This document shows, piece after piece, positions 1 through 60,827 of a stretch of DNA of 64,000 nt. The position numbers and the translations under genes were made by a program. The DNA is from Lepidurus packardi (lineage: Eukaryota > Arthropoda > Branchiopoda > Notostraca > Triopsidae), in NCBI GenBank assembly GCA_023053545.1, contig JAKZAN010000005.1:6944001-7008000 (forward strand). The letters are read 5' to 3'. The notes beneath the pieces were generated by a model. It made no database searches and was not told the DNA's origin. It worked only from the letters and a program-made list of their open reading frames with translations. Position 1 is the first letter of the stretch, and every line of letters starts with the position of its first letter.

Positions 1-34647
<34,647 letters not shown>

Positions 34648-39628: not shown

Positions 39629-41552
39629 TTAGGCAGTCAGGGCCAGGAGAGCTTTCTGGTAGTCGCCACTTAAATCGCCCTGAATTTGTGAAAAACACAT
39701 TGGGGTTCAAAAAACGTCTTGGAATAGGCGTTAGAAATGTTCAGTTGCTTAAAGCTATCAGGATTTTTTCCAAATCCCCTGTCGTTTCTCCCTAATGGAC
39801 ACCTATGGTTTTTCTCTGCGTTTCTTTTTCAAATGTGTTTTCCAAATTACCTTAATCCAGGAATCGAGGGTTTTCCCGTATTTGCGTTGAAATTCATCCT
39901 TGATGTTACCCAAGTCGATCTCACTCCGCGAGACGATCAAACGAATCAGTTGGCGATCGTGAGTCCCCGCACCAGCCATTGATGCGTGCAAACGTTCCGC
40001 AAAGTACTCGCGTCTGTTTTGGGCACATTTCACTATGAACGATTTAGGAAAATTTGACGTAAATTGTTTAGCTTTATCTAATCAAACTTACGAACAGCCA
40101 CTAAACCGTCCTCTACATTGTAAGAGAATTCTCGACGCACAGCATCAATTAGGGGATGTCCCGTTATCTTTTGATACTCTTGCATGATTTGGCGCAGCTG
40201 CGTAAAACTGCGCGTCGCCAAGATGCTATTGAACGTAGCTTCGTCCGTTCCCATCTTATTTTCACCTTAAAACAAATGTTTTTTAATTTTTTTAAATATT
40301 TTTTCCATGGTTCTTTACCCGCAGAATAAAGACGCTGGGCATCGGATTGTGCGCCTGCAATGTCCGCGATTTCGTGCTCGTCACGTTGGCCTTGTGCTAA
40401 AGATATTAGCAAGTGCTTGAAATCCCCACTAGTGTCCCCAGACAGATCCTTTTCCAAGGAACGTCCGAATTCTAAAAAAAAAAAAAAAAGAAAAAATAAG
40501 TTACATAACTTAGCCATTAACGAGGTGCGGTTACGTCGATGATAAGAAGCACTGATATTTCGAATCTCGTGATTGGTGCGGCTACACAAAATTTCAATTA
40601 GGACGCCGTCCTTGGTTCCCATGCCAGCCATGCTCTTCTGCAATTCTGTAGCCAAAAAGTCTGGTAAGGGCAGCATCAACGCCAGTATAACATTCTCGAA
40701 ATTGCCGGATAGTTCGCTCTTCAGATCTTTGATGAGATCCTAGAACAAGGCTTCGTTAAAACTTGTACTTCAAAATTTAAAAAAAGTACTCTTCCAAAAG
40801 ATGCTTTATAGGCCATGGAAATTTGTTGACGTTGTTCAGAGGTACGGTGGCAGAGAACGTTAATTATGGCCTTTTCGTCAGTTCCCATACCCTTCATTGC
40901 TTTACGAAGCACTTCTCCATCCTGGCGGGCGTCGAACGGATGAAAAGGGCGAACTGTGGGGCGATCCTAAACAGATGTATATGTCAGATTTCTTCTAAAT
41001 TTGTGTCTATTTTTGTTCATTTTTTGGCTTTTTACTGGATCCATTGGGCGACTTGGCTGCGAAGGATGCTGCTGCACGGCAGGCACTGTTGGATAGGCGT
41101 AACCTGGAGCGTACTGCGGTGTAGGCTGTGGGTAGCCTGTTGGTGCTATAGGAGTTTGTGGATATCCTGCTAGTGCTGTAGGAGTTGGTGGGTATCCTGC
41201 TGGTGCTTGGGGAGCAGGATAGCTTGGATACGGTGAAGGTGCGGGCACCTGCAGGGAATTAACAATAATTCATTAGAGTTTGTAGGATGTAGCTTGACTG
41301 CATTATTTTAAGGGCATCTATTGGCTTATGGGAAGGAAACGGGTTTGTTGATTTTACCTGATGTGGTTGTTGATAAGGATAAGGCATTGGAGCAGGCGCT
41401 ACTGCAAAACCATGTCCGGATGCAGGTGGATACATGGGATAACCTCCACCCGAAGCTACAGGGGCGTGGTTCGGTTGAGGGGGATATGCGGGATAGGGAT
41501 TGTTTTGCTGGGGTTGCTGTGTAGGATAACTGGGGTAGTTAGGGTAGCTCAT
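39629..41552 (-). CDS. Annexin with a long Pro/Tyr-rich N-terminal head
   Basis: Eight exons on the minus strand encode 449 aa: 41552-41358, 41248-41036, 40966-40790, 40739-40535, 40471-40319, 40265-40092, 40032-39851, 39679-39629. Annexins bind acidic phospholipids in a Ca2+-dependent way. Residues 1-136 are a low-complexity head of PxY/PxP motifs ([16 protein letters not shown], then repeated AGYPQTP-like units), as in annexins A7 and A11. Four annexin repeats follow, with type II Ca2+ loops GMGTDE, GMGTKD, KMGTDE and GAGTHD. Repeat 2 continues [18 protein letters not shown]. The last exon encodes the typical terminus [16 protein letters not shown] and stop. The sequence is complete in frame with canonical splice sites. 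It ends 256 bp from the convergent UTP21 gene. The vertebrate class cannot be assigned by eye, so no symbol is given. Confidence 0.92.
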
Positions 41553-41834
41553 GGTTGTAATGGATTAACAATACGAGGCCAAAACTAACAGTAAAACGGA
41601 ATTGGGGTCAAGTGAGATTTGTGGTGAGTGCGAAGACGGGCAGAGCGCAAAGAAAGCTAGAAAACCATTTTTTTTATAATTGTGAATTAAGGATTAATTA
41701 TTACTACCTTTGGTTTAACAAAATCTGGATTTAAGAAGCTCTGGGGAATTGACACTTTTGGAAAGGAGTTTTAGCAACGAGAACTGTGCGAGTTGTTTAT
41801 ATGCTGCCTGTTGGGAGCTGACGCGAGCAGTGTG

Positions 41835-45883: not shown

Positions 45884-47009
45884 CTAATACATGAAAATGT
45901 TAATCCCAATAAACTTTACATCAGGCAACGCAGCCCAAGAAATACCACCGAACGACTCATTCTTGGTTCCGTTAAATTGAAAAAAAAAATCGTTTGGGGT
46001 GCCAAACCAAGCAGTTCCACGTCCCGGACAAGAACTTAAATCATAAGACGTATCGCTGGGGAAGGGAGCATACTGCTGGTCAAATTCCAAAACGATCCAC
46101 ACAATTCCCCAAAAGTCGAGTTGTCATACGGAACTGAATACAATGGGGCACTTAGTCCGTCTCCAGCGGTGTCCCCAATGTACGCTCTTACGCTCAGTTG
46201 CGAGTATGGATCGCAGAATAAGTTGGAGTAATTAGCTGTGTACGTGGTCATGTTCTTGTCAAATAGCTGAATATAAAGGGTAGCATTTCGGTCATTAAGT
46301 ATTAATGAACACCCTCCCCATGGGAAATTATTCCAAGCTGATTTCTCCATAACTGTACCATTTCGAAACACGAAACGCTGGTAAATAAGTAGCATTTGCT
46401 AAAACACGTGGCAGGGAATTGGTAAGAACTATACCTAAAGGACCAAAGGGTACATGCCTCTTCCCCTAATATTCGATCTTATGTAAGCTTAGTAGTAATA
46501 TATTTTTAGGAATCATACATTGCACAGACGAACGTGAATAAAACGCCCGGTGACAACTCCTGCAATCCAGGCTGCAGGAAACACAGTTGTTACCCCAGTA
46601 GCCTGGTCGTTGACATAACGAGCAGCTTCCACCAGAGTAGATGCATATTTCTTGGCAAGTCATTGGCTTTCCAGTATCAGGAACTTTATCGAAATGTAAA
46701 GCCAAGCCTTTGTGTGGAAAAGTATATTTTGAGGATTATCGCACATACTCTGGTTCCGCAAGATAAATTGCAGCCATGTGGTGCCCATTGGAGATAACAC
46801 GGTGCTGGAGTGACAGTCGGGGTTATGGGCACACCTTCTCGTACACATAGTACGAGCCAGATTTAGGGATCCAGAGCAACGGAACCCCATAAAAGTGTTT
46901 CCAATACCATACCATCGGAATACTTCCCACGATAATTAGAATGCGTGACGCTGAAAAACGATGCCTCTACTGTCAAAACTCCTAGACACAAAAATATCAG
47001 GAGGCGCAT
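45884..47009 (-). pseudogene. PAN/fibrinogen-like secreted protein, degraded copy A
   Basis: The first codons are intact: MRLLIFLCLGVLTVEASFFS (signal peptide) then VTHSNYRGKYSDG, the family's N-terminal motif. PAN-like (ARTMCTRRCAHNPDCHS), Cys-rich (DKVPDTGKPMTCQEIC, CSLCQRPGYWGNNCVSCSLDC) and fibrinogen-like parts (YIGDTAGDGL, LCGSFWN, CPGRGTAWFGTP, GISWAALPDVKFIGINIFMY) are all present in order. They lie in different frames. At least three shifts are needed, near 46880, 46690 and 46080, and a stop lies in frame at the start of the third exon near 46400. The copy most downstream on the minus strand is therefore probably dead, unless the assembly has indel errors. Confidence 0.75.
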
Positions 47010-47750
47010 TCTGCGTTCTTAAAAACAGATTTCTTTTTGTTTCTTGCTGTCTGGTCAGAACAAGCAAGAACGAGGGACTAAGGTGTTCTAATGGCAAAGG
47101 AATTACTTGCCTCTGTCCATAACTTCACCAAACCACTGTCTTCCTGAATTGATTTATTTAGATGATTATACCCACAAAGCGAAGCGTGTTAAGATTTATA
47201 AAGGTAAATTGTGTCCGTGTTTCATGACCATTTAGGAGACTTTAGCAAAACCTTTCTCGAACCTTCTCCTTCGTTTCCCTGGATCAATAGTGAAGGAAGC
47301 GAGTGCTCGTAAGGTCCCTCGAATCTGTTGGATTTCAACTATGTATATAGTTAATGCGTTCCTTTCCATAGCTTTTGCTGTGCAGCTTATGTGTACCGTG
47401 CCGCACACAACAGTTGTATTAGAGCGCATTATATAAAAGCAGTTAAACGGTCCAATAACATCCAGACAATATTCCTGCAACATTAATTGAATGCAAAGGA
47501 AATTTAGTATCTACATAAAAAGGAACTACGGAACCGCTAAAAGGGTTTCCCCTTTTGCTCATACGCGTATATTTATCACGGAGGCGAAGTAATGTATACC
47601 TGTTTTATTTATTCATCAAACCCATAAATTAAGCTTACAGTCTTAAAGCGAGTTTAGCACAAGTAAAACACGTTATAAAGCAAAAGTTATAAGTTTCATT
47701 GGTATATGCAGGCTGTTTAATGCGAAAAGTTTCCAAAAAGCAAAAGGGTG

Positions 47751-48640
47751 CTAATACATACAGACTTTCACCCCAATTAAATTGATGTTGGGCAATCCAG
47801 AACAAGTAATTCCGCTTCTAAAGGTGCTTACTGTACTGGGAGTGCCGAAAAAGGCTGTCGAGAGTCAAGGACCAGGGCCCAATCCATACGGGGTACCATT
47901 AGTTACGACTCCAAAATTACTCGCATTGGGAAGCCAGAAAGGTCCACAAGAAATATTATGAGTTTGCACCTTCTACAAACGGAACCAATGGCGAAATGGG
48001 AGCTCTTAAACCATCAGTGCCATTGAGAAGACTTTCCAAAGCTGTTCACTTGTTCGCCAAGCAGTTCAATCCCGCAAATGTTGTGGTATACGACGGCCAA
48101 GTGAAACTGTCCGAGAATAATTCAAATGTAGAAAAAATTTTGCGTAGTACTGACGAGGTCTGTACAATTGTCGAATGCAAACGTATCCCAACCAACCGAA
48201 GTACCGTTGGGGAAAGCGAAGCGTTGAAAAAGCAATGTTTTGCTGCCCAAACAATTAACAGTTTTCTTATAGAGATTTCCTGCTCCTAACCACAACGTGC
48301 AGTCGACTTTTTCTGAAATATATACTGATAGTCTATAACTTTAGCTGTACAATTCTATATCGAGATATCTACCTTGCAAAGATAAGCCAGGATACAGGTA
48401 CTTATAACACTGTAAAAAAGTTGTACTGCAAGTTTCGCATTGTAAGCCGGTACAGCTTGGTTGTTGACAAACCGAGCATTTTTCAGGGTTGTTAGCATGC
48501 AGTTTTCATTAAATCGGGAGCATACAAATAGTTCCCATGGTGGCTTGTTCTAAAACAAAACCGTTGTACGTAGGATAAGTAAATCCAAAAAAAGCCAAGG
48601 GCTGCTGTAAGCCAAATACGAGCTCTAGTAATATCAAATC
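47751..48640 (-). pseudogene. PAN/fibrinogen-like secreted protein, degraded copy B
   Basis: Recognisable pieces in order are the N-terminal motif LAFFGFTYPTYNGF at about 48600, the Cys-rich module NNPEKCSVCQQPSCTGLQCE followed by TCSTTFLQC at 48380-48500, and the fibrinogen-like exon from VDCTLWLGAGNLYKKTVNCL to GITCSGLPNINLIGVKVCMY and a stop at 47751. The PAN exon is missing. In-frame stops interrupt the fibrinogen-like part. The second intron, about 48303-48376, keeps usable GT and AG sites, so this arose by DNA duplication, not retrocopying. A CT-rich low-complexity tract sits just upstream at 48650-48735. Confidence 0.75.
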
Positions 48641-48649
48641 TATAATATT

Positions 48650-48735
48650 TTTTTTCTCCCTCCTCCCTCCTCCCTCCTTCTCCCTCTCCCTCCTTCCTCC
48701 TTCCTCCTTCCTCCTTTATTTTTTTTCTCTCTCCT
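48650..48735. repeat. Polypyrimidine CTCC/CTT low-complexity tract
   Basis: Runs of CCTCCCT and CCTTCCT on the plus strand (polypurine on the minus strand) extend over about 85 bp. Confidence 0.8.
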
Positions 48736-49073
48736 TCCTAACCCAAGTCTTAACTAGAACTGAAATCCTGCAGTGCATGAATTCAAACTAATCGTCCATT
48801 AGGCCAGAAAGCTGCGCGAGTAAACAACTGTCGGGCTTTCACTATATTCAATTTTACGTACTTTCAGTTTGAAACAGGGTCACATACTCAAATAAGCAAT
48901 TTTCGGATTAATTAGTTACTTTTATTATATGTATTAGTTTTAAAAATAATCTTTTTTTGCTAAGCGGCACTATCAAATAATAGATAGCCGTCTGAGAACG
49001 GGCCAGCTTTAAAGAATTGTACTTTTTATATTAAAAATAAAAAAATAGATACATTATTTAAAACTCAAAATAA

Positions 49074-49345
49074 GACATTAAGGTTAATTGCACATTAAAA
49101 CCAGGTCAGTACGAATACTTAGGGGATGTAGGTGCAGGGTGTATATGTTTTTCAATATTAAAAAATACTGAAAAAGGTAAAGTATATAAAGCTCAACGTA
49201 GAAGATTTTTGAAACTATTAAAAATATTAAATACATGCTAAAATTATCTGAAGCCCATCAGAAAACATTAAAATTAATTGCACACTAAAATTAGGTCTGT
49301 ATGAATACTTAGGGGGATGGAGGTGCATGGTGTTCATGTGCTTCG
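49074..49345. repeat. Spaced direct duplication in intergenic DNA
   Basis: A unit of about 75 bp containing TTAATTGCACAYTAAAA and GAATACTTAGGGG, then GGTGCA, occurs at about 49074-49150 and again at about 49265-49340. A degenerate spacer full of ATTAAAAATA lies between them. The rest of 48736-49716 shows nothing recognisable. Confidence 0.6.
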
Positions 49346-49716
49346 AAGTGCTTATATAACGTTCGTAGGATAGTTATTGCCGGAGTCTTGGCATGGTAGT
49401 TCGTTTTGAATAGCAGGGCAATAGGAATAACCCACGAAAAACAATCAAACGGAGTATGGTGGAAACGTACATCGAAAGCTCATGTTGGCAAGTTAATGCC
49501 CAGGAATGAACAGAAATTCCTGGTATACCTGTATCCAGGGTGTTTTTTATTGGTTGGGTTTTTTATTGCTCGTGTAATTGATTCACGTACGGATTACAAC
49601 AACTCTTCCTGTGTAGCTGTAGATTTAATTCACCGCAAATAGAACTGTACATGTATAGTTAAAGCTAGCAATACGCAAGCAAAACTTGTGAGCAATGTCA
49701 AATCTGATCGGCAGAA

Positions 49717-51027
49717 TCAATACATGTAAACCTTAACCCCGACTAATTTTATCCCAGGCAAAGAAGCCCAAGCTATTCCGCTGTTAAAAATACCGTTTAC
49801 GTCAGTAGCAGGTGTCCCGAACCATGCAGTAAGGCCTCCAGGACATGGGCCTTGACCGAAAGGCGTGTTAGGTACTGGAGATGCAGTGGTGCTACCCGTC
49901 ACTGAAGTACTGGTCGTACTGGCCACAGATGTAGTTGCGGGGGTAGATATTGTATCGTTACTAGAGCTAATATTCCAGAAAGGTCCACAGGATGGGGAGT
50001 ACGAAACATCATTAAATGAGACCCAATTCAATGGAGCCCCAAAGCCATCTCCAGCAGTACCACCAACGAAGGCTCCGATGGTCAAATTACGTTTATCATA
50101 ACAATAAAAGCCCGAGTAGGTTGCATTATATATTGGCAAGCTAGAATCTTCTGGATATAGTTCAATATATAGATTATGTCCAGTCGTGTTTACGAAGTTG
50201 TAACAGGGGGAAAAGGAAAATGATTTGTCATTCCTTACTGTGTCAATGTTGGTTCCATTCGGAAAATGGAATTGACGGTACAACAGCATACGATTTGCTT
50301 TACAGCCAACAAGTGGCATTTGATACGCAGGAGGGTTTCCAGTCCACAAAGTGCAGTGGTTATCTTCTGAAAAATTAAATATGGTTATATATAAACGTTA
50401 TAAAAGTGTTAAGAGTCTACCAGAAGTAGCATTGGGGAAATAATTAGTGTTGCAAGCCGCACAAGACTGGCTACAATTTTTGCAGTCTGGTCCAAAGCAG
50501 CCAGGTCGATTACAAGCAGAGCAATTGCCTGGATTCTGCAAATAACAGTTCTGCTGGCAACTCCTCGGAGTTTGAGAATCTGGAACCTTATCATACGACC
50601 GAAAATCACCAGCAGTAAAACCAGGCACGGCGGTTGAAAAGGGTGTGTTCGGATTTATACACAAATTTTGGCGTAGCAAATGGCAAATTATGCCCTTGGA
50701 AACCCACCGCATTTGACTTGAAACACAATTAGGATTATGCATACATCTCCTGATACAATTTTGAGTAAACCGGAGTTCGTCATCTGAAAAAAGACCAAGC
50801 ATTAAAGCAAAACAATGGTTTCTACCTCAAGTATGAAGAAATGTACATATTTGCGGTCCTCCATAAAGAAAACTATCTCCGTTATCGCCAGTCATGTAGT
50901 GGGCAATGGCTGATCCACTATCACCTCTCCATAAGGTATCATAGATTTGATCTGTTATGCTAAACATGTTAGCCGATACTCGGCTAACTAAAAAATATCC
51001 AAGAAATACAACTACTTTCAGTGTCAT
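49717..51027 (-). CDS. Secreted PAN, Cys-rich, fibrinogen-like protein, copy C (Thr/Ser-rich insert)
   Basis: Three exons (51027-50847, 50783-50421, 50366-49717) encode 397 aa with phase 1 introns and canonical splice sites. The N-terminus is a signal peptide (MTLKVVVFLGYFLVSRVSAN) followed by the family motif MFSITDQIYD. Exon 2 carries a PAN/apple-like domain (CIRRCMHNPNCVSS...CHLLRQNLC) and a Cys-rich module (SCQQNCYL, CSACNRPGCFGPDCKNC, SQSCAAC). Exon 3 is fibrinogen-like: YIELYP, ATYSGF, FVGGTAGDGF, SCGPFWN, GQGPCPGGLTAWFGTP, GIAWASLPGIKLVGVKVYMY. Only this copy has an insert of about 30 Ser/Thr/Val residues (TSVASTTSTSVTGSTTAS) after CGPFWNIS, suited to O-glycosylation. It is probably extracellular. 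Function is unknown; lectin-like recognition is inferred from the domains. Confidence 0.82.
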
Positions 51028-51499
51028 TTTCTGTGAATATAAGGTTACTCTGAGTATAAAACTTCGAAAAGGACTGGCAATACTGTCAAGAAACCCTTCT
51101 GTTATATAGCACGTACTTTTTCTCGTAAGAGCATCATGGGGGTGGAGTCCCATACGTGCCTAGCAAAAACATAAATAATCAATTTGTTCAACCCAATATC
51201 CGCCATACAGCCATAAGGTACTCACCTTCAGAAGCATTTTCCAATATTATTGCGTACCGAGTCGGAATTCAGGGCTTCGTAGAACATCGATTTGTACTGA
51301 CACTCATACTCGCTTCGATTCCTTGCGCCAAGGGCCCATTCTGACCGGATGCCGTTGAGTTTATTCACCTTATTCCTCATGTTATGGCTGCCGATAAAAA
51401 GTACTTTAAGGTATTTAATGACCTAAAGCACAAATCAGACACAAGCAGACTAAGATCCGAGACTTCCTTGGAAATTAAGCAAAGAAATTAAGCAATGAG
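51028..51499. other. Upstream region of copy C
   Basis: This should hold the promoter of copy C. No other gene, repeat or motif is recognised. Confidence 0.4.
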
Positions 51500-51968
51500 C
51501 TTTTCCGTTAACATGGAGAATTTCGGAACAACCTTTTGTAAGAACTAGTACTTTAGATACAAAAATGCACTAACAGTAAAGTTAAGCACATTAATCATTA
51601 ATGCACAATTCATACTCATTTTTCGGTGCATAATAAATTAGTAGTATGAAAATTACGTTTACAGTAACGTGAAATACATGGGCTAAAATAATTTCTATTA
51701 ATTGTGCAGGTGGTAATGAAACAGATAATTTTATGGGACTAATAGTTTTCAAATGTGACAATGGGTTTTCGAGACGACTTGATTTAGGAATTTTGCTGCT
51801 ACAGCAAATTGGAGTGACAAATTGTATTTTTCAGAAGAAAAACGTAGAAAATTTATGGGCAATAACTATCTATGTTTTTATTGTCTCACGCAAGGTTTTC
51901 CCAAAAGAATAGCAAACTTCAGTGCCACCTGTGAATGTTTCTCATCAATAAGCTAAGGTAAAGACTAC
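51500..51968. mobile_element. TTAA-type MITE, left end lost
   Basis: The body matches the family: CCGTTAACATGGAGAATTTCGGAACAAC at the left, then GCTGCTACAGCAAATTGGAG and AAACGTAGAAAATTTATGGGC, with the right end CATCAATAAGCTAAGGTA. The left inverted repeat is not found, and the right end is degraded and abuts the fibrinogen-like gene fragment at 51967. The insertion, or a deletion that started there, probably removed part of that gene copy. Confidence 0.5.
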
Positions 51969-52320
51969 CGACAATACACCAAAATGGACCACACGAGGGA
52001 TGATACATGCTTGATTTAATTGAAAGAGTGCCATCAATAAGAAGAGACCCACACACCATCACCCGCTATATTATTTACAAAAGCTACCAGTGTTAAAAGT
52101 CTGGTTCACAAGTGAAAATCCTGGATAGGTAGCTGTAAGCGTTTGAAGACTCGACTTTGACTTTAAAGAGGGCAATTCGATGTAAATGTTGCCTTTCGTT
52201 GGGCAACCAAATACCATAGTTACTGAATTTAAAAATGCTGACGTCTGCGTCAGCTTTACTGGGATTTTTCAGGCAATTAACGGTATTTTTATACAGATTT
52301 TCGAGTACTAGGCAGAGTGT
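51967..52320 (-). pseudogene. Fibrinogen-like exon fragment of the PAN/fibrinogen family
   Basis: Minus-strand pieces match exon 3 of copy D: ENLYKNTVNCLKNP, GNIYIELPSLKSKSS, TATYPGFSLVNQTFNTGSF, IAGDGV and YHPSCGPFW. Frame shifts and stops separate them, and the segment after CGPFW is gone where the MITE begins. It lies immediately downstream of intact copy D and is closest to it in wording, so a local tandem duplication followed by decay is likely. Confidence 0.7.
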
Positions 52321-52409
52321 GTATTCGGCTTCGTCTAAAATACTACAGCTATCAAAAGGGAACTTTAGCACAAAGTGCAACACACTGTAATCATTGGGAG
52401 CTATCTGAT

Positions 52410-53623
52410 TTAAAACATATAAAGGCTTATTGTGATAATGGTATGATTCGGCAAAGTGGACCACGTAATACCGCTTTGGAATATATCAGCAGACATACTG
52501 GGTACACCCCAAAACGCTGTACCCAGACCGGGACATGGACCTACGCCGTAAGGTGTGGGTTCGGTGAGATTTAGGCTACCAGAAATATTCCAGAATGGAC
52601 CACACGAAGGGTGATATAAACTTGAGTTAGTTATAAGATTGAGCTTAGTCAAAGGAACGAGCATTCCATCTCCGGCTGTGCCATTAATAAATTTTCCTAA
52701 CGATAGCGATTTAGCAGGGCCTAGTTGAAACCCCGAATAGGTTGCGGTAAATTTGGTAAGAAATGAATCTTGCAATTCGATATACATGTTGCCTAAAGTA
52801 CGAGGAGCGAAAAGACTATAGACAGGCAAGCCAAAGTTATCAACATCTGGTACTGTGCTGGTGTTCTGAATAAGGTCATTAGACGTACTGGAGCGTCGAA
52901 ACAAAAGAAACTTTTCTGCAGAGCATGTTACGCTGGTTTGATATAGATTTTTTACTCCTGCCCATAAATTGCATTTCACTTCCTCTAGAAATGGAACAAA
53001 TCAAAAAGTGAAACTTTTTTCTTCTTTTCTTAAAAGGCAACTTACCTGAAAGAGGTATGTTGGGATAGGTATTGTTGTAGCATTCTAGACAATCATTGTC
53101 GCAAACTGTGCAATCACTGGATTTACAGCCATCTCGATGACAAATTGTGCAACTTTGGTTGTTTAGCTGAAGGCAATCAATTTGACAGGATTGAGGAACC
53201 CCCGTATCTTTGATCTTGTCGTAATTGATGCCTTCAGTTTCCTCACCATTTACTTCAGCTGACTGATTTTGACACAAATTAAGATTCTTGAGAACGCAGT
53301 ACATTTGCCGAAACCGGAGGAAAACGTAGTTAGACAAGCAGTCTTCGTGATGACTGCACCTTCGATTGCACATCATCCTGGCTTGTAGCACTGCAATAGA
53401 ATAAAAAACAAACGTCATTCAAACCAATAAATGTGACCTGGAAGCTCCTATCTACAATACCTTGAGAAACTTCCAAATAGGGGCCCATTTTAATTACTTC
53501 CAGCAGGTTCCTACCATCACCGATGTAATAACCAACATACGACGGATGGGTAATGCCAAAGAAATTCGCCAAAGCAGTGGCGGATAGTAATGCAAATCCA
53601 TATACCAGTAAGTTTTGTAACAT
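52410..53623 (-). CDS. Secreted PAN, Cys-rich, fibrinogen-like protein, copy D
   Basis: Three exons (53623-53461, 53390-53046, 52984-52410) encode 360 aa. I chose the ATG at 53623 because paralogue F starts at the same place (MLQ...); an in-frame ATG 78 bases upstream would spoil the signal peptide. Residues 1-20 form the signal (MLQNLLVYGFALLSATALAN), followed by FFGITHPSYVGYYIGDG. Exon 2, residues 55-169, holds the PAN-like domain (ARMMCNRRCSHHEDC...YCVLKNLNLC) and the Cys module (DTGVPQSCQIDC, CTICHRDGCKSSDCTVC, DNDCLEC). Exon 3 holds the fibrinogen-like part (YIELQD, ATYSGF, FINGTAGDGM, SCGPFWN, GVGPCPGLGTAFWG, GITWSTLPNHTIITISLYMF). It is very close to copy F. Extracellular location is predicted; the biological role is unknown. 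Confidence 0.85.
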
Positions 53624-54276
53624 TATTTGCTTTTCAAGTAGGATTCCACGGTTGTTACTTTCGTAACGTACCCTGGCAACGGTCAAGATAGGACTGTCCA
53701 TGAATATAATAGGAAACCTTCCTCCAAACCACGCATATAACGAAAAGACGTCTATGCATGTACGCTTCTACTCATTCCTCCGGTCTTTTGGTAAAAATGC
53801 CTATATGGAAGTAGAATAAGCCTACGTTTTTTTCATTGCTGCAAAGAAGGAACAAAGAACATCTTTATAGTATTAATAAATCCGGGAGGGTGTCTTATAT
53901 AAGCCTATGACACGAGCTTTGTCCGGTTGTGGCCAGAAATGTTGATTACCGTAGCCTCATACCGTACTCTCCCAGAAAGGAAGGGGTACTTACTTCTGCG
54001 TTTATAGTATTCTATGGGGTACGTCCGTTCACCTAATTATAGTCCTTTTCGCATTTCGATGCGGCTGGTCCTATTGTTGTTATCACATAAAGCGTTGGTT
54101 ACCATCTGTTAGCTTATTAAGTACAGATTTCTGTATTTATTTCCAGCTGATTAACTAGTACCTTCAATGCAAGGAATTCAGCTAAAGTGTTACTCACGTT
54201 TAAAAAGCAAGAAGGAATTCTAAGCTTCTACTAAACAAGCGAAAACGATACGCAAAGTATTCAAGAAAATAGGCGC
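53624..54276. other. Spacer between copies D and E
   Basis: This likely holds the promoter of copy D and the 3' end of copy E. No gene or repeat is recognised. Confidence 0.45.
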
Positions 54277-55511
54277 TTAATACATGTAAATCTTGATGCC
54301 AGTTAGTTTGACATTAGGCAACGCAGCCCAAGCAATCCCGCTTGTGAACTCCCCAGTTTGGGTTGCATTGCTAGGAATGCCAAAAAAAGCAGTTGCTAGT
54401 CCAGGACAAGGGCCCGATCCGTACGGGGTACTGGCGATTGAAAAGTTGAAATTTGTAGCATTCAGAAGCCAAAAAGCTCCACATGAAGGATGGTATAGTG
54501 TTGCAGTATCCACAAATGGTATAGGTGCTAAAATAGGTGCACCTAAACCGTCAAGACCGCTGACGAGTGCTTGCACACTTATAGATTTGTCGCCCGAGCA
54601 GGTAAATCCCGAGTATGTTGTAGTATACAATGTACTATTGTTAGAATATAATTCAATGTCGAGAAAATGGTTCCCCTTGGCAGACATAAAGTTACACGCC
54701 ATCCAAGGAAAAGGGCCAGTATCATTCGAAATCCCATCGGGGAAAACAAACCGGCTGTATAGCAGCATTTTGCTACCCAAACACGTAGCATGCGTTTTGT
54801 AGATATTTTTGGGTCCCAGCCAGAGCACACATTGGACTTCAGCTAAGAGTATCAATCATCAAATAAAAAAATTAAATAACAAACTAAACTGACGCCATAG
54901 TTCAAACTACACCAAGTCACTTACCTGTTAGAGAGGAGTTTTGATATGTAAAGTCTTGGCATTGTGAACAACTTGTGCTGCAAATTTCGCATAGTACACC
55001 AATACAGCCTGGACGTTGACAAGCTGAGCAATTTCCGGTGTTTTTTATCATGCAGTCTTCGTTACAGCTTTGAACCTGCGTGTCTGGAATCTTGTCAAAA
55101 AGTTGAACCCCACAATAGGTTACTGGTATTAAATTCAGTTGGGGATTCAGACATAAGTTTTCTGCCAGAAGATAGCAGGTTACCACATTTCGAAACTCCC
55201 AGGCAACACTTGAAGCGCATTTTCCGTTAAGAGCACAAAGCCGATTACATTTTAAAGAATGCCGCTTAAAGAGAGCTACGTTTGCAAGACAAAATGCTCA
55301 GAAAATATAAGTAATAAAAAGTTATATAATACGTACCTTTTTGAAGATCGGTAGAGCAGGTGCCTGCAGCAGGCAGCATGCGAATTGTGCTCACTAGTTT
55401 TACTGTATCAAGTGAAGCAAGCTCATAAGTGTGATACGTGATACTGAAAAACCCAGCCACGACCAAGGAAAGAACTGAGTTCAGTACGATTGAACCTAAC
55501 AAGATATTCAT
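54277..55511 (-). CDS. Secreted PAN-like, Cys-rich, fibrinogen-like protein, copy E
   Basis: Three exons (55511-55337, 55275-54925, 54842-54277) encode 363 aa with the same phase 1 intron positions as the paralogues. The signal peptide is MNILLGSIVLNSVLSLVVAG, then FFSITYHTYELAS. The PAN-like part is more diverged (KCNRLCALNGKCASSVAWEF then CYLLAENLC). The Cys module reads SCNEDCMIKNTGNCSACQRP then GCIGVLCEICSTSCSQC. The C-terminal part reads ELYSNNSTLYTTTYSGFTCS, LVSGLDGLGAP (the AGDG loop is altered to GLDG here), SCGAFWLLN, GSGPCPGLATAFFGIP and FTSGIAWAALPNVKLTGIKI. Loss of the AGDG motif could alter ligand or ion binding. A 169-codon ORF on the opposite strand of exon 3 is a shadow. Confidence 0.84.
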
Positions 55512-56120
55512 GTTTTCCCTTTGCCGACTACGTTACAAGTGACCACGAAAGGTAAGATTTTAGCCTTGATACCAAACTAGCTGAGCACTTAGTCACAAAG
55601 TTCCGCGAACAAAGCGCTGATCGTAGAAGTAAATGTACGTCAAATGGACGTTAATCTATAAACGACAAATGAAAAGAATATGTTTGGTACGTCAGTCGAT
55701 TAGCAAAGTAGCGCAGCGAAAAATTGCTAATAATGACTACAAGCTTTTCCGCTGCTCACTTATTGCCCACTTAGTTTACCCACAAAGTCGAACAAAGTCA
55801 TTGGTTAGTGTACTTAATCCTAGGCGTAAATCAAATTGGAAACGTCTCAAAATCCTACAATACTTTTTTACGGGCCCTTTTCTCATTGTTCACTTAACAA
55901 TAAAGCATTCAAACAGCTCAAAATAAAATTCCATAATAAGTACTTTTAAACGATTGAGGGTTACAAAGCACTTTCAGTATTTGTATGCGCTGATAAATTT
56001 TGCCAAAAAATTGCTTTCTTTCCAATAGACGTTACATATATTTTATTGTATTCTTCTAAGTGATATTATAATGGTAATTTAACACGTAGAGTACATTGCA
56101 TGTTGCAGTTACCATCAGTT
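55512..56120. other. Upstream region of copy E
   Basis: No supported gene is seen. A plus-strand ORF at 55633-55926 (97 aa, MYVKWTLIYKRQMKRICLVR...) is basic and lacks recognisable motifs; I do not call it a gene. Confidence 0.4.
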
Positions 56121-56637
56121 AAGGCCACGGTGTACTGGAACCCCTTATGACGTCACAGCATGGCAAATTTCGATTTGAAAGTTCTAATTGTCTGTGAAAT
56201 ATAATGAGAAAATATTGTGACAATAATGCAGGGGATGTAGAAATCTTTTAAAATACGTGCATTTTTCTAATATCTTTTTCCGTATATTTGTATATAGTCT
56301 TCCAAGTTATGAATATTTTAAATAAACAAATATAGAAAGGGTAAAAAATATAGCTGAGTAGGTTTTATTATTAAAGTATTTGAAAAAAAGTATGTTCAAT
56401 TATCTCTTTCTCTTTTTTTTTGTTAAAAAAAAGTTTGGGAAATTAGGATCATAAAATGTGCTTACCACTCAGAAATAACGATCAGACAGGGAACTACATA
56501 GCTTGTGTCAATCATTTGGCGTACATGTTCGTATACATTTGGTGTACTTTTTGACGCATTATTACGATAAAGAGATCTGTTATCACTAATATCTTTTGAC
56601 AAAAAATGGCCAACTACTTGCAGTTCATCGTGGCCTT
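56121..56637. mobile_element. AAGGCC-ended inverted-repeat element, second copy
   Basis: The left end AAGGCCACGGTGTACTGGAA and the right end, reverse complement AAGGCCACGATGAACTGCAA, match the ends of the element at 4841-5392, and both are followed inward by AGTAGTTGGCC-type sequence at one end. It is 517 bp long with an A/T-rich middle and no coding content. Confidence 0.6.
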
Positions 56638-57168
56638 GCACACCCTCGACAACTTTCGATACACCAGATCAGGAAGAATATAAAAACGAAGAAAACTGAT
56701 GTCTGTTTTTTATGCCTTCCTCCCTCTTGCTATTATACGAAGGCCTTCCAATGACAATAAAGTTGTGCTTAGAAGAAGACTATCAATCGCTATCAAGACT
56801 ATCAAGAAGTAGGCAGAAGCAGGCATAAGAAGTAGGCATCAAGAACTAAGGCTATCAAGAAGTAGGCATGGAAGAGGACTATGAATCAATAATTTGGAAT
56901 CACCGTATTCGTTCGCCTATTTATGGAAAAATCAATGGCTAGGAAAGAAAAGACACGGACATGACTGCCCCTTCGTTCCGGTTGTGCGGGAAAAAGAACA
57001 ATGCACAACTCCGGCCCAGGCAATTTCACTGTGAAATACCCCATTTACAATAGTAAGCGTGCGAAAAACAATGCGGTAAGGCCGCCAGAAAATGAGCCCC
57101 CTTCAAGAGTCACTTTCTGGAAAACTATTTAAAAATTACAAGTCATATTGGTTTAAGTGGTTTAAGTT
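56638..57168. other. Spacer with a short degenerate repeat
   Basis: About 56780-56870 repeats ATCAAGAAGTAGGCA-like words four to five times. Nothing else is recognised. Confidence 0.4.
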
Positions 57169-57342
57169 CAGTGTCGTAACCAGGGGTGGGGCAGCCATGG
57201 CACGTGCCCTGGTCACCAACTTAATGGGAGAACCATTTTTATAAAAGTTAATATGATCCTTGCGTTCCGATTTCTCTTTCGTTATAGGGGGGGGGGGCTT
57301 TTTCCTTTGTCCTGGGCATCATTTAGCCTCGTTACGACGCTG
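57169..57342. mobile_element. Short MITE-like element with CAGTGTCGTAACCAGG ends
   Basis: The left end CAGTGTCGTAACCAGGGG and the right end, reverse complement CAGCGTCGTAACGAGGCT, form inverted repeats over about 174 bp. The interior has a G run (GGGGGGGGGG) and no coding capacity. The superfamily is unknown. Confidence 0.5.
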
Positions 57343-57385
57343 GTTGCGTTTTCCAGGAAATTAGTGGCATTGGTTAAATTAGAAA

Positions 57386-57830
57386 TTACGATCTAAGACA
57401 TTGATTAAATCTATCGAAAACAACTGCAGTCGTATTCAGTCCAGTTGAGTCTACAATAGTTGTCGAATCAGTTACATTAGAGAGGGTTGAACTTTCAATA
57501 GTCGTTATGTCGGTTAAACTGGGCAGAGTTAAATCTGGAGTTATCATAACTTGGGTTTTGAGAATCGACATGCTGGCAAGAAAACATGATTGCTAACAAG
57601 TATTGAAAAAGGTTATGAGCTATGTCGTCTCGTATCTGGATTTTTCGGCAGCAACCATGGTTTTCGACATTCCCGTGTTTATGGTCCGATTTCTGGGTAA
57701 ACACCCGGACATCCAGCAGTTCGTATCCGGTGCAATAAGCTTTGTTCAAATGACAATAATTCCAGGTTGGCAGGAGTGCTTTTTCCCCCCTTGCCGCCTT
57801 CTCCACGTGTCAAGCTAGGACACCTTCGAC
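57386..57830 (-). other. Possible decayed coding remnant, unrecognised
   Basis: Two overlapping minus-strand frames are open here. One (57806-57495) contains YCHLNKAYCTGYELLDVRV and CCRKIQIRDD. The other (57571-57386) is Thr/Ser-rich (TDITTIESSTLSNVTDSTTI). I recognise neither and find no splice structure. It could be a remnant of a secreted Cys-rich or mucin-like gene, or chance. From 57831 to 58139 nothing is recognised. Confidence 0.2.
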
Positions 57831-58139
57831 TGAGAATTATACTCATACAGGTCAGTTGCTATACATGCCGTTAATCAATGAAAGCGACCCAGTAATAAAG
57901 AAATTCATACGATCGCATAGCAGGTAAAATAAAAAGATTTCGAAACTTCCTTTTACTTCTTTCCTTTCATTTTTTCTATATTTTTCAAAATGTATATAAG
58001 ATTACAGGCCCAGATTAGATATCATGACGTTGCTTTCCAAGATTAAAAGTTATCTTGTCAAGCTGTGTGAGTCGTGTAACATCTTAATAGATTAAAAGTA
58101 AAGCAAATGTGTAATAGAAAGGTGAGCAGAAACGGCAAA

Positions 58140-59382
58140 TTATGTTAACCAGATGCTAATTTCTACAATGGTATAATTAGGCAAAGCTGACCATGTAATG
58201 CCACTTTGGAACGCGTTTTCTCGAGACATGTTGGGCTGACCCCAAAACGCTGTACCCAACCCGGGACATGGACTTACGCCGTACGGTGTAGGTTCGGTGA
58301 GATTGAGAGTACCGGAAATATTCCAAAAATTTCCACACGAAGTATCAAATAGGGTAGTATTAGTAATAAAAGAGACATTAGACAAGGGAGAGTACAACCC
58401 GTCTCCTGCCGTACCGTTAACAAATGGTCCCAAGGACAATTTGTAGGATAGGTCAATAGAAAAATCGGAATACGTAGCGGTAAAAATTGTGGTAGAAGAG
58501 TTCGACTCGGAAGGTATGTCCAAAGCACGCAACTCAATGTACAAGTTTCCCACTGTGCGATGAAACTTACGACGAAGATCAAAACTAAAATTTTCATCAA
58601 ATGGCAGTTGACTGAAATTTTGATTAGGCCAACTGGAGCGTCGAAACACTAGAAACTTTTCTCCGAGGCAAGTGACATCAAATTGATGGAGATCGTTTGT
58701 TCCTCCCCATAAGTGGCAAGTGATTTCACCTAAATATTTTATTTAGAAAGGATGTATTACTTCTGTGCCATATAATATAAAACTTACTAGATAGGGACAG
58801 GTTCGGATGGATGTTGGTAAAACAATCGAGACAGGTATGATCGCAAATGGTACAGTCACTCGTTCTGCATGTTGGTCGATCACAAGCATCGCAGGATCCG
58901 TTTGTTTTACGAAGACAATCAGATTGGCAAGATGTTGGCGGACTCATGCCCTGGATTTTATCATAATTTACACTACTCGCTTTGACATTTACTTGACTTC
59001 GTGGAATTTTGCAAGAATTGACGTTCACCAAAATGCAATATATGTATACCCCTTGGTAATAAACATAATTTGACCAGCAATCTTCAAGATGAGCACACCT
59101 CCGATTGCACATCATCCTGGCTTGACGTACGGCAGTTGCTATCGAAGGATTAGCAGAATACAAGATGTATTTAATATTTCAAAACACGAGATGTATTTCT
59201 TTCCCACATATAAGTATACCTGCAGAGTTTCCAAAGTAATGACCCATTTTAACTTGTTCCAATCTATTGGACCCGTTACCAATAAAGTATCCAAAGTAGG
59301 ATGGGTGGGTTACACCAAAGATACTTGCCAATACAGTACTTGACAGTAGGGCTACTCCATGAAGAAAGATGCTCTGTAACAT
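58140..59382 (-). CDS. Secreted PAN, Cys-rich, fibrinogen-like protein, copy F
   Basis: Three exons (59382-59220, 59138-58788, 58729-58140) encode 367 aa. The signal peptide MLQSIFLHGVALLSSTVLAS is followed by IFGVTHPSYFGYFIGNG. Exon 2 carries the PAN-like domain (ARMMCNRRCAHLEDCWSNYV...YCILVNVNSC) and the Cys module (SCQSDCLRKTNGSCDACDRP then TCRTSDCTICDHTCLDC). Exon 3 carries LYIELRALD, ATYSDF, FVNGTAGDGL, SCGNFWN, GVSPCPGLGTAFWG and GITWSALPNYTIVEISIWLT. Exon 1 has exactly the length of exon 1 in copy D (163 nt), marking a recent duplication pair. Several N-x-S/T sites fit a glycosylated extracellular protein. It is the most upstream member of the cluster. Confidence 0.85.
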
Positions 59383-59876: not shown

Positions 59877-60827
59877 TTAAGGCTCCCTTGCATAAGTTTT
59901 CAAATCTGACAAGCCGTTTTCAAGAAATCTTGTTCCGAAAGTTTGACGACTTGACCTTAGCTCGGTACAGGTGATTAGCATGGGGAATTTAGGGACACTT
60001 TTTGGAGAAATCCCAGTTCATTTCATTAAAAAATTATTTAATAGGACTCCCGAGCTTGCTGTCAGGTAGTGCACAAAGAATGCAAATTTTTTCCAGAGAG
60101 TAATAAATTAGCAATATACAATTGAAGTTTACAACTGTGAGAAATACGTTACCTAAAAATCTGTCATCCGATTGTGCACCAGCTGCTAACAAAAAAACTT
60201 TTATTTTTGATAGTTTTCAAATCTGACAAGCCGTTTTTAAGAAATCTTGTTCCGAAAGTTTGACGACTTGATTTAGGATATTGTGCTGCTACAGCAAACT
60301 GTGGTGAAAACTCATACTTTTCAGAAGCAAAACGAGCGTAGAAAATTTGCCGGAAATTAGCTATATTTTTCTTTTTTTTATTTCTTACCCAAAGCTTTCG
60401 AAAAACGAACACGTTCCCCGGATTTAGTTACACACGTATGTAATGTTTCTCGGAGTAAAAAAAAAAAAAAAAAGACACTTGTGTCACTGTCTAACAATGA
60501 ATTTTTCTTTTTTCACCTAAGGGAGTGAAAGAAAGGAGTGAAAGAAAGGGCAAGTTTTAAAGATCTTCGTCAATTAAAGTTGATGAGAATCGTTAATCTA
60601 ATCTAACCTATCCTAATGCATTTTCAATCCAACTACCAATTTTAACTCTAAATGACACCCTTTTGTCATTATTTTTTAGGAGAACGTTTTCCAACAATAA
60701 TACACATTAGTGTCACTTTTATCTCCGAGTTCCTGAACTGGAGAATTTATTGCGCTAAACACTAACAAACGTCAGTGCCATCTGTGACTATTTCCCATCA
60801 ATAAGCTATGGTATACGGGAGCCTTAA
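59877..60827. mobile_element. TTAA-flanked MITE, enlarged composite copy
   Basis: TTAA plus GGCTCCCTTGCATAAG opens at 59877, and AAGCTATGGTATACGGGAGCC plus TTAA closes at 60827. The internal block AAATCTGACAAGCCGTTTT with AAGAAATCTTGTTCCGAAAG occurs twice, at about 59905 and 60215, which suggests rearrangement between two copies. A poly-A run at 60455-60472 and unrelated sequence at 60480-60720 are further additions. It has no coding capacity. Confidence 0.6.

Follow-up and report, generated by a model that had tools for sequence, protein, structure and literature searches.

Seven related stretches, four intact genes and three broken copies, were found by six-frame reading and tblastn on the minus strand between positions 45884 and 59382 of the window (the whole 64,000-nt stretch of DNA that was analysed). 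We lean towards the view that the intact copies encode a locally duplicated family of secreted, glycosylated and disulfide-rich recognition or adhesion proteins, which combine a PAN/apple-like module, a nine-cysteine module and a diverged fibrinogen-related domain (FReD). The intact copies are, in the direction of transcription on the minus strand, G1 (59382-58140; exons 59382-59220, 59138-58788 and 58729-58140; 367 aa), G4 (55511-54277; exons 55511-55337, 55275-54925 and 54842-54277; 363 aa), G3 (53623-52410; exons 53623-53461, 53390-53046 and 52984-52410; 360 aa) and G5, copy D of the first-pass annotation (51027-49717; exons 51027-50847, 50783-50421 and 50366-49717; 397 aa). Each has three exons, and the frame is open through both introns. 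The splice sites of the four gene models were picked from the sequence alone, by eye and so that the reading frame stayed open. All eight introns, 54-82 nt long, have GT-AG borders and lie in phase 1, the phase that the first-pass annotation had described as common to the intact copies.

Two of the broken copies are larger. One, at 47009-45887 on the minus strand, contains fragments of all parts in several frames (46973-45887 in the tblastn search; the start codon was placed by eye). The other lies on the same strand at about 48630-47754, with an approximate start, and consists of fragments of the cysteine module and of exon 3 in several frames (48490-47754 by tblastn). The six-frame reading of this copy revealed, by eye, an exon-1-like fragment; most of the PAN-like stretch is missing, and the copy is interrupted. 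The third is an exon-3 remnant of a further copy at 52199-51952, also on the minus strand and just downstream of G3. Its fragments are in three frames, it was detected by tblastn with G1 (three pieces, E 5e-6) and with G3 (two pieces, E 2e-6), and by eye it perhaps begins at about 52330. The tblastn E values ranged from 2e-13 to 1e-105 among the intact copies, the two larger broken copies had values between 2e-8 and 2e-34, and with the four intact proteins as queries there was no match in the window outside 45887-59382 at E<=1e-2. The genes arose by tandem duplication and three of the copies have decayed. The minus-strand tandem cluster of related units proposed in the first-pass annotation is therefore real, but the statement that all seven units share every part holds only for the four intact copies, the other three being broken or partial.

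Other genes in the window mark it as animal DNA. A large twitchin/titin-like gene on the plus strand extends over 1-34650; two of its exons were confirmed, one by its fn3 and I-set domains and the other by its kinase domain, and the rest was assigned by eye. In a comparison with PDB the kinase exon scored higher with twitchin 1kob (159.8 bits) than with twitchin 1koa (141.6 bits). We take 1kob to be from Aplysia and 1koa from C. elegans, and the kinase in the window presumably resembles arthropod projectin. Between two of the twitchin-like exons, at 18332-18732, a 208-base unit is present in two tandem copies with 78% matches. Near 37.7 kb the window contains WDR36/Utp21 and near 63 kb a CRAL-TRIO gene. 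An annexin gene on the minus strand (39803-41564) has a Pro/Tyr-rich tail region in which a 30-base tandem repeat is located at 41127-41207. No RNA families or tRNAs were found in the 64,000 nt. Upstream of G1, the 60-mers at 59895-59954 and 60212-60271 are 98% alike and have a 65% match inside the cluster at 51744-51803; a second pair of repeats, 51897-51960 and 60750-60813, is 81% alike. These repeats are possibly remnants of a mobile element.

The intact copies have diverged considerably. G1 and G3 are 56% identical (dN 0.33, dS 1.86, NG86), the other five of the six pairs 34-39%. The values for G1 and G3, one pair of the six, are consistent with purifying selection, though dS is high. All four proteins start with a hydrophobic stretch, and none of them has a comparably hydrophobic stretch at the C-terminus. 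They contain 18-22 cysteines, of which 18 are invariant (14 encoded by exon 2 and four by exon 3), and 8-13 N-glycosylation sequons each. Judged from the hydrophobic start and these sequence features, the proteins are probably secreted, and the number of sequons suggests that they are probably glycosylated. We infer that the cysteines form disulfide pairs. If the animal were parasitic or predatory, the proteins could be products of a gland or of the body surface directed against a host or prey; probable secretion, richness in cysteine, tandem arrangement and divergence would all fit, but no pointer to such a life style was noticed in the window, and we regard this explanation as improbable.

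Assignment of exon 3 to the FReDs could not be made by family models. The Pfam search of the four intact proteins that the first-pass annotation had proposed returned neither PAN nor fibrinogen_C (PF00147) for any of the four at E<=10. Three more sensitive approaches, none of them decisive alone, pointed to a FReD. In the first, all nine PDB matches (E<=10) of an exon-3 profile built from the four intact copies were ficolins, with the alignment centred on GTAGDG. Their E values (0.3-0.69) were not significant and, because the nine ficolins are close kin of each other, they amount to nearly one observation. The whole-protein profile had two PDB matches, an unrelated GTPase (E 0.78) ahead of ficolin-3 (E 1.1). 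In the second approach, exon 3 was compared by hhalign with five human FReDs, whose membership was checked with PF00147 (235-324 bits). The local alignment had a score of 36.6 and a probability of 62.8 over 53 of 194 columns. This score exceeded those of all 300 column shuffles (mean 13.4, sd 2.5, maximum 22.9) and that of the reversed-column control (17.5), whereas in global mode the local match was not recovered (score 5.9). The score of exon 3 with PAN was 9.3, equalled or beaten by 231 of 300 shuffles.

The third approach was structure prediction, a check that the first-pass annotation had also suggested. The AlphaFold2 model of exon 3, made from the four-sequence alignment, was poor (pLDDT 48.2, pTM 0.52). 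When this low-confidence model was used in a Foldseek search, 46 of the best 50 of 758 matches (E<=10) had fibrinogen-type titles, the exceptions being at ranks 20, 25, 28 and 34; 2xnx (three rows), 4zfg_A and 8vgp_A were counted as fibrinogen-like on the basis of title and length, from which the identity of the chain was deduced. The best E value was 0.039, thus no match reached E<=0.001, and the TM-scores among the best 50 of the 758 were between 0.16 and 0.36. The outcome of this check was thus mixed: the matches are of the expected type, but the model confidence, E values and TM-scores are low.

The alignments show both what exon 3 shares with ficolins and PF00147 and what it lacks. Exon 3 aligns with them at the GTAGD region, and the MAFFT alignments extend the agreement to SC-GxFW and to GIxW near the C-terminus. 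One global alignment, made with the five human FReDs, placed three of the four invariant exon-3 cysteines in FReD cysteine columns and GIxW at the corresponding position. The agreement varied with the alignment: the number of common cysteine columns (at least seven of the nine sequences) was three with one of the three MAFFT settings and one and two with the others, and the N-terminal cysteine pair was recovered with one setting of the three. The spacing of the two late cysteines is 23-24 residues in G1, G3 and G4 and 48 residues in G5, in contrast to about 13 in ficolin-2. Exon 3 of G5 carries a Thr/Ser-rich insert. Unlike ficolins and PF00147, exon 3 of the cluster genes is below Pfam detection and, in the alignments, has neither the DxDxD motif nor the CxxxNLNG-type region (0/4 copies for each, as opposed to 5/5 human references). 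The former is responsible for calcium binding and the latter for acetyl binding; both are common in FReDs without being required.

One could also suppose that the likeness to FReD and PAN is due to chance or convergence, and that these proteins adopt a fold specific to the family. The missing Pfam match, the insignificance of the PDB matches, the low model confidence and the failure of the profile alignment in global mode would all be compatible with this explanation, which we nevertheless consider very unlikely, as three methods converge on FReD for exon 3 and its hhalign score surpassed every shuffle. Thus the fibrinogen-like end described in the first-pass annotation, though invisible to Pfam, found backing in the PDB profile search, the hhalign shuffles and the Foldseek search. 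The statistics support, short of proof, the interpretation of exon 3 as a putative, highly diverged FReD.

The PAN-like domain that was claimed for the N-terminal part had a more uneven outcome. The Pfam PAN models did not match any of the four intact proteins at E<=10, whereas three human reference proteins matched PAN_1, and the exon-2 profile had no match in PDB. Exons 1-2 were also compared by hhalign with six PAN sequences drawn from three human proteins; 12 of 300 shuffles attained the score of 16.6. With the FReDs the score was higher (19.1, reached by two of 300 shuffles), therefore hhalign does not single out PAN. What speaks for PAN is the outcome of a fold search. PAN domains have a core of helix and strands fastened by cysteines. 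The exon-2 model was poor (pLDDT 43.2, pTM 0.34), with a helix at 2-15 and strands at 21-27 and 30-36. With this model the top five of the 76 Foldseek matches were chains of SML-2, a PAN/apple protein that to our knowledge has no fibrinogen domain; this likeness in fold is weak (E 0.55-1.6), and the sequence similarity to PAN is not significant. The SML-2 structure is called PAN-modular in a title cited by PMC4653623. A PAN fold in exons 1-2 is suggested by these results and appears likely rather than proven.

The middle part of the proteins contains a nine-cysteine module (C136 to C171 in G5), which does not match any Pfam family. Pfam listed a single row across the four proteins, LPD30 in G4 (E 0.13), far under the cut-off of that family; we attribute this match to chance. 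No description of the module was found in the open-licence literature, in searches that were not aimed at the module itself.

It is interesting to compare the architecture of the cluster proteins with those of known FReD proteins. According to parts of PMC7588048, the Biomphalaria FREP Bg179 has PAN/Apple together with a fibrinogen domain, and PAN/Apple is also known from some Lottia FReDs, thus the domain combination is of a known kind. The likeness of the mollusc proteins to ours is one of description. Bg179 has in addition an IgSF domain, and no Cys-rich module comparable to ours is mentioned for the mollusc proteins in those parts of PMC7588048. The parts of PMC5117596 and PMC9835746 that we could consult do not mention PAN domains. 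Consequently, the arrangement that appeared unfamiliar in the first-pass annotation has a precedent in its PAN/Apple and fibrinogen components, and none was found for the intervening cysteine module; the new part is this nine-cysteine middle module and the degree of divergence. Viral contigs were scanned with the exon-3 alignment and prokaryote genomes with the whole-protein alignment, each by two short peptide patterns; the scans gave 42 and 43 pattern matches and no confirmed relative. As both collections are of non-animal DNA, this result has no bearing on the range of the family.

Secreted invertebrate FReD proteins mostly serve recognition and defence. Defence is also named as their main role in parts of PMC5117596. 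On the evidence of sequence features, a role in recognition or adhesion that does not involve the usual calcium and acetyl-binding motifs of FReDs seems most likely for the cluster proteins. They would be released outside the cell, where glycans or proteins borne by microbes or tissue would be ligands of the FReD and PAN modules, and divergence among the tandem copies would broaden the range of targets. With the DxDxD motif and the CxxxNLNG-type region missing from the alignment, the binding surface would differ from that of ficolins, and it is unlikely that the proteins simply copy ficolin binding. The same missing motifs, together with the 18-22 cysteines and 8-13 sequons per protein, fit the main rival explanation, according to which these are secreted structural or adhesive proteins of a matrix, cuticle, egg coat or glue, with a FReD-like fold serving as scaffold and not in recognition. 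This possibility deserves to be taken seriously, although we think that it is rather unlikely. Tandem turnover with paralogues 34-56% identical suits recognition genes well, but reproductive and matrix proteins can presumably show the same pattern.

Within the recognition or adhesion reading, which we prefer, a more specific version can be formulated: the cluster could represent a recognition family restricted to one lineage. Its FReD would have lost the features for binding calcium and acetyl groups and would be combined with PAN and with an undescribed nine-cysteine module, and the family would diversify by tandem duplication. We put this forward tentatively, as a possibility with somewhat less than even chances. 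If it is true, FReDs can drift below the detection level of Pfam, and counts of recognition genes in invertebrates may miss whole families. The array would then also be a compact site for studying the duplication, divergence and death of recognition genes.
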